Assembly (NCBI GenBank): GCA_016763855.1
Contig: JAESSY010000005.1
Location: 1 to 64,000 of the forward strand
Source: Pseudomonadales bacterium
Lineage (GTDB): Bacteria > Pseudomonadota > Gammaproteobacteria > Pseudomonadales > Azotimanducaceae
DNA length: 64,000 nucleotides
Direction: 5' to 3'
The notes below the pieces were generated by a model, which had not been told where the DNA came from, searched no databases, and saw nothing but the letters and a program-made list of their open reading frames with translations. Shown here piece by piece: positions 40,068-42,192 of the stretch (position 1 is the stretch's first letter; each line of letters begins with the position of its first letter). Made by a program: the position numbers and the translations under genes.

Positions 40068-40144
40068 GGCTATGTAGCTCAGCTGGTTAGAGCACAGCAT
40101 TCATAATGCTGGGGTCGGTGGTTCAAGTCCACCCATAGCTACCA
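40068..40144 (+). tRNA. tRNA-Met (anticodon CAT, elongator type)
   Basis: 77 bases including CCA. Acceptor GGCTATG pairs with CATAGCT (one G-U), D arm AGCTCAGCTGGTTAGAGC, anticodon arm CAGCATTCATAATGCTG and T arm GGTTCAAGTCC. The normally paired first base pair argues against the initiator. A tandem stem-loop repeat follows immediately. Confidence 0.96.
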
Positions 40145-40146
40145 AA

Positions 40147-40335
40147 TCCGGGGCTTTTGCCTTTGGCAAAAACACGGATGCCGGCAGTGTTTTCCGCTTG
40201 CGGAAAATCACGAGAGGCGCGAACCCTAAATCTACCCCAATCTTGCGTTTTTGCCTTCGGCAAAAACGCAAAGGCCGGCAGGGTTATCCACGAAGTGGTA
40301 AATCCCGAGAGGCAACAAACTTCCAGAATACCCAC
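40147..40335. repeat. two tandem ~94-bp double-hairpin units
   Basis: Two diverged copies lie 94-95 bases apart. Each begins with a hairpin TTTTGCC-TTY-GGCAAAA (40155-40171; 40243-40271, where it grows to 13 perfect pairs). Next comes GCCGGCAG-n-GTT-n-TCC (40180-40195; 40274-40289), a second hairpin (40190-40207; about 40283-40301), and finally ATC-n-CGAGAGGC (40207-40218; 40302-40313). The second hairpins differ in sequence but both stay paired, which suggests selection on structure. Short ORFs cross it on both strands but show no protein-like character. Possibly a dispersed intergenic repeat family or a structured RNA. Confidence 0.85.
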
Positions 40336-40401
40336 ATCCGAATCAACTCGAATCAAACCTAATGGTGACCCCGTAACCCCACAGCATTATTCCTATAAAT
40401 G

Positions 40402-42192
40402 CTACTCCCTATGACACCAAAACGTATACATATTCGCAAAGCTTCTGAAATCTTTTTCCTCAAGTTTTTCAAGTTTTTTAAATGAACGATAAGCTTTTGG
40501 ATCTACTTTGCCCTCAACGTTTGAATGCTCCATTCCTATAAACTTCATTTGGCGAGCTTGTAGTGCTTCAGCGATTTCAGGGATAGAGCTTACATGCTCG
40601 TTACGAGCGCATATCATATCTGCAAAGGTATGCAGGTTATAAAAGTCTTTGAATAATTTGACCTCTTCAAAGTGGTAGAAGTGAGCATCACTCTTATGTT
40701 CGAGAATCTGTTTTCGATTTTCAGTCAGAATATCATTGGAAAGTAAGCGGTCAGGCATGCCGGTGTGATCGTCAATAGCTTGGGCAATTAAATTCCAGAT
40801 CGTTCTCACCTCGGAAGCTGATCCCGATTTTAAGTGACCCTGATCCCAGAGTTTCAACCTAAATGCGCTATCAACTATCCGCGCAGCTAGGCTATAAATA
40901 CCGATCCTCATATACCCTTGTGGTTTGAGATTCCTAGTAAGTTGATCAAATGAATGCCAAATGTCTTGGGTATGCTGAAGCACGCCGACGCATTCAATGA
41001 TATCAAATTGCACCCCAGAGGCTGAGAAGTGCTCGATATCATTAAGCTCAATCCGCAGGTTCTGAATATTAAGCGCTTTTTGTTTTCGGATTGCATAGGC
41101 CAAGGCTCGGGGGCTTACATCATAGGCGACAACGGTAGCATCAGGGTTTGCAATCGCCACTTCAATTGCATGCTTTCCTGTACCGCAACCTGCGATTAGG
41201 ATATCCAATCCTTTTTTTCGTAAGTCTTCGTCCTTGTGCCCGAAAAATTTAAGTATTTGATATGTATTTCGGACAATATTGTCTAATTCCTTCCATTTGG
41301 GATAGGGATAGTCCAAATACATTTGTTCAAAATCACCATTCAATAGAGGGGTGTTTGTTGTGAGTTGGTCTACAATTTTTTGCTCCGTTTGGATGAAATC
41401 AAATGATTTCAAAACGAGTGGGTTTTTGAGCTGAGTTTTTATGTGCGGTAGTGCAGAGAGCGTCTCAGGATCACTAATATCATTGATAGGCATAAACATC
41501 GCGATGATCCACAGGCAAATTCGACCGTCATTGGCATTAAGGGTCGATGATAGAAATAGATCCTGCAGGATTTGAAGATTTACCGTGTCCTGATCATTTT
41601 TTTCAAAAAGATAATCGTTCTCAGAACATTGTGCCGCAATAGCTTCAATAATGGGTTCGAGGTCAATAAAATTCTGTAGGTTCGGATTGGCACGCTCTAG
41701 GATAAGTCGAATTATCGTATTTAAAAATAATATTATACTAATGTTGGTAATTGGCCCCTGCTTTAACATCCAAAGGAAGAGCTTGTCGTCTTGGAGTAGC
41801 TGTAGAGTACTCAACAAGTTACTTTCGTTGAGTTTGCTAGGCTTCCAGTGGAAACCAAAATAGCGTTGGTTTTGGATTATTGCTGTTAGATTCTCTGAGT
41901 ATAGATTTCTATCTATGGCTTGCTGGCAGGCAAAATCTAGTATGGGTTCGTGAGAATTAAGATTTGACCAAGTAATGACCTCACCCATTCTTTCAACTGA
42001 CTTCTTCGTGATAAATTCTGTACACCAGGTTATCGCAAATTCTACTGCCTCCTTTTTATTGCCTAACTTTTGGTGGCAGCGAGTACCGTAATCCAAATAT
42101 TCTGCTCTAACCTGACCTTCTTTATCAACAATTTTTGTATACATGAAATTCAATGCAGCTTGATATTTTTGTTGTTGATACAAGGACTTCAA
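40402..42192 (-). CDS. large SAM-dependent methyltransferase with helical N-terminal half
   Basis: 596 residues. The first 290 are helical, TPR-like, without a recognised family signature ('YQAALNFMYTKIVDKEGQVR'). After 'MYLDYPYPKWKE' comes a class I methyltransferase domain: motif I 'LDILIAGCGTGKHAIEVA' (about residues 329-346), 'VVAYDVSPRALAYA' and 'FDIIECVGVLQHTQD'. A helical tail follows. The substrate is unknown; similar architectures appear among tetratricopeptide methyltransferases of surface-glycan loci, but that is inference. It is the third gene of a minus-strand cluster, 107 bases after the VanZ-like gene. Confidence 0.82.
   Translation of the reverse strand: MKSLYQQQKYQAALNFMYTKIVDKEGQVRAEYLDYGTRCHQKLGNKKEAVEFAITWCTEFITKKSVERMGEVITWSNLNSHEPILDFACQQAIDRNLYSENLTAIIQNQRYFGFHWKPSKLNESNLLSTLQLLQDDKLFLWMLKQGPITNISIILFLNTIIRLILERANPNLQNFIDLEPIIEAIAAQCSENDYLFEKNDQDTVNLQILQDLFLSSTLNANDGRICLWIIAMFMPINDISDPETLSALPHIKTQLKNPLVLKSFDFIQTEQKIVDQLTTNTPLLNGDFEQMYLDYPYPKWKELDNIVRNTYQILKFFGHKDEDLRKKGLDILIAGCGTGKHAIEVAIANPDATVVAYDVSPRALAYAIRKQKALNIQNLRIELNDIEHFSASGVQFDIIECVGVLQHTQDIWHSFDQLTRNLKPQGYMRIGIYSLAARIVDSAFRLKLWDQGHLKSGSASEVRTIWNLIAQAIDDHTGMPDRLLSNDILTENRKQILEHKSDAHFYHFEEVKLFKDFYNLHTFADMICARNEHVSSIPEIAEALQARQMKFIGMEHSNVEGKVDPKAYRSFKKLEKLEEKDFRSFANMYTFWCHRE

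Follow-up and report, generated by a model that had tools for sequence, protein, structure and literature searches.

A dispersed double-hairpin repeat, probably a small mobile DNA element, at gene 3′ ends in the Azotimanducaceae

Introduction

Bacterial REP and BIME repeats are associated with RAYT transposases and fall into GTAG and CGTC super-families (PMC3733652, PMC2817692); REPs usually number more than 100 copies per genome (PMC2817692). A REP hairpin carries an unpaired GTAG or CGTC tag at one of its ends, and the gene for the cognate RAYT often lies next to a REP. In anatomy, the repeat described here comes closest to the double-hairpin elements found in the mitochondria of Allomyces, which are very small hairpin elements, optional among close relatives, and whose mechanism of movement is treated as unsettled (PMC2800124, PMC7218506). 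GC clusters, in the same accounts, have short flanking direct repeats.

Here we analyse a 64,000-nucleotide stretch of DNA from a Pseudomonadales bacterium (hereafter the window; assembly GCA_016763855.1, contig JAESSY010000005.1, positions 1 to 64,000 of the forward strand), in which a tRNA-Met gene is followed by two copies of a double-hairpin unit, apparently a small mobile element of a type that has not been described before. The unit shares with REPs and BIMEs its short, mostly intergenic DNA hairpins, their occurrence as dimers and in tandem groups, stems that vary while pairing is kept, and the presence of Y1/RAYT genes in almost every carrier genome. It differs from them in having no GTAG or CGTC tag beside hairpin 2 (127 rows tabulated) and instead a GRCA/GAGA loop, a 4×4 internal loop with a covarying 3-bp stem to close it; in being made of two head-to-tail hairpins; in its few copies (1 to 23 matches per carrier genome); in its placement at tRNA 3′ ends and stop codons; and in that no RAYT gene was found beside it in 40 Y1 gene stretches. 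Unlike the Allomyces elements, which are mitochondrial, it is bacterial, and flanking direct repeats of the kind described for GC clusters are not evident at it. MITEs are marked by terminal inverted repeats and a target-site duplication; the present unit shows two separate hairpins in place of one pair of terminal repeats.

The rtT repeats behind tyrT of E. coli are also arranged in tandem directly behind a tRNA gene and carry a piece of the tRNA 3′ end, two features that the present repeat shares. They occupy one locus, have a unit longer than the present one and, to our knowledge, are not dispersed. The core boxes of integron attC sites read GTTRRRY and RYYYAAC. In the open PMC papers searched we found no description of a repeat family such as this one.

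Results

Two double-hairpin units follow tRNA-Met in the window

A first-pass annotation of the window, made from its letters, had described a two-copy double-hairpin unit with common sequence blocks behind tRNA-Met. The unit is present as described, with a spacing of 94–95 bp: the block GCCGGCAG lies at 40180-40187 and again at 40274-40281, the block CGAGAGGC lies at 40211-40218 and 40306-40313, and the whole units, of ~75 bp each, span 40146-40218 and 40243-40313, 3′ of the CCA of tRNA-Met. The features are listed below; R1 is a covariance model of the hairpin 2 core (39 positions, from 10 aligned cores, alignment A3, chosen by eye), and both window cores were among its seeds, so that the bit scores given for them come from seed sequences.

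40068..40144, plus strand: tRNA-Met(cat) gene with encoded CCA (ARAGORN; Rfam tRNA model, 70.3 bits)
40146..40179, plus strand: copy 1, hairpin 1, with outer stem ATCCG/CGGAT and inner stem TTTTGCC/GGCAAAA, starting 1 base past the CCA (read from the sequence)
40180..40218, plus strand: copy 1, core GCC-GGCA-(hairpin 2)-GAGA-GGC with a bulged T on the 3′ arm (R1, 58.5 bits; exact pattern)
40219..40242, plus strand: spacer between the copies, inside which repeat family D1 starts
40243..40271, plus strand: copy 2, hairpin 1, with 13 perfect pairs and a TTC loop (inverted repeat I3)
40274..40313, plus strand: copy 2, core GCC-GGCA-(hairpin 2)-GAGA-GGC (R1, 53.5 bits; exact pattern)

The claimed growth of hairpin 1 from 7 to 13 perfect pairs between the copies can be read directly in the sequence; in copy 1 the 7 pairs lie inside, and a 5-pair outer stem follows beyond an internal loop. 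Hairpin 2 likewise keeps its pairing despite changed letters, as had been noted, a T-A pair near its base being replaced by G-C (GTG/CAC to GGG/CCC). The unit had, on the other hand, been placed three bases after the CCA, which is wrong: the last base of the CCA is 40144 and the first of the hairpin is 40146, which leaves 1 base between them. The spacer's ...CTACCCCAATC resembles the 3′ end of tRNA-Met and its trail, ...CTACCAAATC (the longer likeness being judged by eye).

The 191-nt repeat stretch folds better than 200 of 200 shuffled versions (z = -3.56). By itself GCCGGCAG is not rare (2 occurrences in the window against 1.39 expected), whereas the composite pattern has just two occurrences in the 4.14-Mb genome (207 contigs), both at tRNA-Met, and its reversed control does not occur. 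No intrinsic terminator (a hairpin with a T run) was reported in 40145-40600 behind the tRNA-Met gene, and for want of a T run the unit is rejected as an intrinsic terminator. When the Rfam covariance models were run on this part of the window, the tRNA alone reached its gathering score, and a permissive search within the units gave a single match, to CRISPR-DR33, at E = 8.3, far under threshold.

The unit belongs to a dispersed family

We searched the DNA of 58 genomes, that of the window included, with the tRNA and its trail. Some matches ran beyond the tRNA, and inspection of the tRNA 3′ flanks in 70 loci revealed the two-hairpin unit behind tRNA-Met and tRNA-Phe genes in several genera. 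At E ≤ 0.1, R1 matched 12 of these 58 genomes, with 10 places in the window's own genome (G000), 23 in G033, and one weak match (E = 0.0986) in G038, which lies outside the family; under strict filters, carrier genomes have 1 to 23 R1 matches each at this threshold. Within the family, R1 detected the unit at E ≤ 0.001 in no fewer than 34 of 206 genomes, the window's own among them, and in 10 of 37 genera. This count is a lower bound, because the stricter filters of the larger search missed G008, which has a unit behind tRNA-Lys (E = 1.3e-6 in the 58-genome search) and which enters the Fisher tests below as a non-carrier.

Among 390 genomes sampled from the order, three matches were found, all of them in family members, with no convincing copy outside; among 369 genomes sampled from the class, the sole other match, in G490, looked by eye like a chance match in coding sequence and was dropped. 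A scan of the genome_contigs collection with a loose pattern gave 118 stretches, on all of which R1 was run (80 and 38). Three were accepted, namely L176 and L203, near-identical stretches from gammaproteobacterial records, and L175; weaker R1 matches (E from 0.0019 to 1) were left out of this set. L175 is an alphaproteobacterial MAG contig (Rhodospirillaceae), which may be mis-binned, with a unit behind tRNA-Arg(acg). Just past that unit lies a degenerate tRNA-Arg-like 3′ end, of which 10 nt match strictly. Neither two exact patterns run on viral_contigs nor blastn of the window copies against phages and plasmids gave a match, and a viral or plasmid carrier is ruled out to the extent of these searches, which diverged copies would escape.

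The repeat is thus a dispersed family and not a single-locus RNA, and a single-locus RNA gene is ruled out by the 10 places in its own genome together with the family-wide count. The first-pass annotation had named a genome search as the way to tell a REP/MITE-like family from an RNA; what the search returned is a dispersed family, but one with few copies per genome.

Many units begin exactly at gene ends

To locate the units relative to genes, R1 was run on 100 loci, to which 6 further loci with 9 matches were added; repeats of one place were left out. Also dropped were 3 matches shorter than 31 nt, where hairpin 1 had been taken for hairpin 2, and 2 array starts whose upstream sequence was too short. 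All of the resulting 108 array starts have enough upstream sequence; they are not independent insertions, because the tRNA-Met units of many species are near identical. A script that checked genes on the unit's own strand placed 40 of them behind a tRNA gene (ARAGORN), 19 at the stop codon that closes an open frame of 80 codons or more, and 10 behind a CCA; the remaining 39 fell elsewhere, and some of these may be false R1 matches (for example L101, L102 and L106). Eight more of the starts in the last two groups, including 2 of the 39, proved to follow tRNA 3′ ends, two of them cut by a contig end (L099, L304) and six 5′-truncated (L100, L103, L176, L308, L333 and L358, that at L103 being only 14 nt), so that 48 of the 108 lie behind a tRNA. 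The tRNA lists of the carrier loci contain no adjacent tRNA on the opposite strand. The tRNA 3′ end, which the first-pass annotation had remarked on as a common landing site, is the commonest position of the units and a very exact one: hairpin 1 starts exactly 1 base past the tRNA in 26 of the 40 cases and at an offset of -1 to 4 in 4 (including tRNA-Arg(cct), which lacks the CCA), and in the other 10 the script's hairpin call was weak or ran into the tRNA. Eleven anticodons are represented, namely Met(cat), Phe(gaa), Val(gac), Leu(gag), Leu(cag), Ala(tgc), Lys(ttt), Pro(ggg), Asp(gtc), Arg(cct) and Arg(acg), the last in L175.

Among the 76 non-tRNA units, 19 lie at a stop codon at their true place, against 0–6 of 76 at nine shifted places. 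At 35 non-tRNA junctions, with boundaries set by eye, YA or YAR precedes hairpin 1 in 31, which we take as a hint only, because stop-codon cases make up about half of these junctions.

The exact junction at the CCA is also what would be expected if a transcript of tRNA and element were reverse-transcribed and re-entered the genome, often 5′-truncated in the tRNA. Units behind 5′-truncated tRNA pieces of 14 to 63 nt (the 14-nt case being weak) fit such a route, and an RNA route has been proposed for the Allomyces hairpin elements (PMC2800124). However, an island integrating in a tRNA would push the old downstream flank away and leave the same truncated pieces, and the stop-codon copies are not at RNA ends; we consider an RNA intermediate quite improbable. 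The truncated pieces themselves, 14–63 nt long, precede units at the six loci named above and at L320 (second copy), and could be either displaced island ends or the sign of an RNA route.

Tyrosine integrases target tRNA 3′ ends, and the unit might accordingly be the end of an integrative island and no separate element. Four carrier loci (L370, L371, L373 and L374) were inspected for integrases, with none noticed by eye among the first 60 residues of their open frames and none found by Pfam in six frames. The neighbours that Pfam did recognize were threonyl-tRNA synthetase after tRNA-Val (G087), YchF by tRNA-Met (G202) and adenylosuccinate synthetase by tRNA-Leu (G087). That no integrase was noticed at these loci suggests that the repeat itself, and not an island end, is the insertion; units are found at stop codons and in arrays as well. 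We have set the island-end explanation aside on the integrase results and regard it as very unlikely.

Units are optional at one orthologous place and occur in tandem

Behind ybhL, occupied and empty places can be compared directly. Of 16 genomes searched, 12 gave 13 matches, of which 11 were read. In G160 a unit directly follows the TAA stop codon, with an assembly gap within the array and, behind the unit, a terminator that is rich in G+C and has a T run. In G157, which belongs to the same genus, a decayed piece of the unit is present. The other nine of the 11 have no unit; they are G161 and G159, also of that genus, and G086, G087, G088, G033, G163, G011 and G162. A target-site duplication was not evident by eye at ybhL, where the empty sites are diverged.

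Behind tRNA-Val(gac), three genomes of genus g8 (G085, G086 and G087) all have arrays that start 1 base past the CCA, with outer stems that differ among them (GTCCGTG/CACGGAC, GTTCACG/CGTGAAC and GTCCATG/CATGGAC, respectively). Elsewhere, tandem units are identical (L126) or have identical cores (L310).

Several variants of the arrangement were also observed. Hairpin loops at L123, L125, L126 and L131 (G033), and likewise at L313, L344 and L352 (G086, G087), contain a further small palindrome rich in G+C (for example GACGGTCCGCCGCCGCGG), a repeat nested in the repeat. One stop-codon site is occupied in two species (L324 in G157 and L343 in G158), L324 being an array with a longer unit (GCTTAAGCTTCGTGG...) on the same hairpins. 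A different tandem repeat, with a terminator-like hairpin and a T run, lies directly behind tRNA-Ala(tgc) at L067 and L069 (G003, G004), and its unit duplicates the tRNA 3′ end; L429 (G003) has a similar arrangement behind tRNA-Met.

The hairpins look to be kept mainly as DNA

In an alignment of 127 distinct cores, 95.2% of cells are paired, and both sides vary in 12 of 13 pairs. The covariation score is 0.491, against 0.108 for shuffles (0 of 500) and at most 0.058 for slid versions; R1-based covariation leans towards the modelled structure, because the seeds were picked by eye, a bias that the slid controls offset in part. Around hairpin 2 the 4×4 internal loop GRCA/GAGA is strongly conserved and has a 3-bp closing stem. 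Before the hairpin stand a G, then G (87 of 127) or A (32 of 127), then C and A; the letters after it are GAGA, with G as the third letter in 109 of 127; the other loop letters are conserved in at least 121 of 127.

We asked whether mismatches in the stems favour G.T, counting those flanked by Watson-Crick pairs on both sides with a scoring neutral to G.T. Across 113 copies of hairpin 1 and 126 of hairpin 2, the G.T:A.C ratio was 46:28, an excess of G.T with a one-sided p of 0.024. (Note that this count varies with the method: an alignment-based version gave 33:31 for hairpin 2 only, and unbiased scoring gave 25:11 for hairpin 2 and 26:24 for hairpin 1; we adopted the cleaner version, 46:28.) In 51 tRNAs from the same loci, which are related to each other and for which all acceptor-stem and T-stem mismatches were counted, the ratio was 39:1 (Fisher p = 1e-5 against 46:28). 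That G.T exceeds A.C only slightly in the hairpins, compared with the tRNAs, suggests that the hairpins are kept mainly as DNA, whereas the residual G.T excess leaves room for a minor constraint at the RNA level. Both selection by a DNA-binding enzyme and template-switch repair of imperfect palindromes could produce such a mismatch pattern.

These data bear on the possibility that the unit is a structured RNA at transcript 3′ ends, in a tRNA trailer or a 3′ UTR, that serves to protect or process the RNA, was copied by recombination and is kept for its RNA function. Placement at the 3′ ends of tRNAs and reading frames in the same direction, the strong covariation, the slight G.T excess and the lack of an intrinsic terminator behind the window's tRNA-Met are all consistent with such an element. 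Weighed against them are the mismatch ratio, so different from that of tRNA, the nine ybhL loci without a unit together with the normal terminator that remains behind the G160 unit, and the lack of any Rfam match other than tRNA at gathering scores. We therefore judge an RNA element to be unlikely. The earlier suggestion of selection on structure holds insofar as the covariation is real, but its RNA reading is poorly supported by the mismatch counts.

Y1/RAYT proteins are a candidate class of mobilizing enzyme

Of the 34 carrier genomes, 32 have genes of the RAYT-type Y1 family (PF01797), compared with 71 of the 172 non-carriers (Fisher p = 2.7e-9). A RAYT subgroup of ~280 aa (alignment A6, built from carriers only), detected at E < 1e-100 in 50 of the 206 genomes, occurs in 26 of the 34 carriers as against 24 of the 172 non-carriers (p = 1e-12); shared descent may suffice for both associations, because both track the clade. 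G000 itself has no member of the subgroup at that threshold. When R1 was run on 40 Y1/RAYT gene stretches (with flanks of up to ~2 kb, as contigs allowed), no unit was found (best E = 0.28), and a RAYT gene adjoining the unit is ruled out for these 40 stretches.

In 17 of 19 subgroup proteins read, a histidine stands at the position of a tyrosine in related proteins, a position set by aligning a related G000 protein to the YIYINP stretch of TnpAREP and placing the subgroup by eye. The tyrosine aligned with YIYINP is presumably the catalytic one, and the histidine at its place makes the ~280-aa protein look as if it had been domesticated. This RAYT-like protein is conserved across genera (L454-L469, L290, L296 and L297), and its C-terminal part is helix-turn-helix-like, with a weak match to Lac repressor. 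Among possible mobilizing enzymes, a Y1/HUH (REP-associated) transposase that acts in trans is the likeliest candidate class.

Discussion

We observe dispersed copies, an exact position, presence and absence at one orthologous place, tandem arrays and a conserved structure, and from these we infer movement: the repeat is probably a REP-like small mobile double-hairpin DNA element of ~70–75 bp that lacks REP tags. Such an element would have its hairpin 1 where the gene ends and its hairpin 2 framed by the GRCA/GAGA loop and the 3-bp stem, and would insert as a unit, in the same direction as the preceding gene, after the encoded CCA or at the stop codon; once inserted, it would often multiply in tandem. 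The mobilizing enzyme may recognize the hairpins in single-stranded DNA, and the target may be 5′-YA(R) just before hairpin 1 (CCA|A, CTA|G, TAA|). More tentatively, and with the odds somewhat against it, the family may home to exact gene 3′ ends through this short YA(R) target, sparing the gene.

A tiny element whose landing place is fixed at the ends of genes offers a simple case of safe-site targeting and, if the homing reading is true, could spread without harm to the gene that it joins. With dozens of natural copies and with filled and empty places to compare, the family provides a test bed for the movement of REP-like and mitochondrial double-hairpin elements. For this bacterial family, it accounts for hairpins behind tRNA genes that are easily mistaken for RNAs or terminators.
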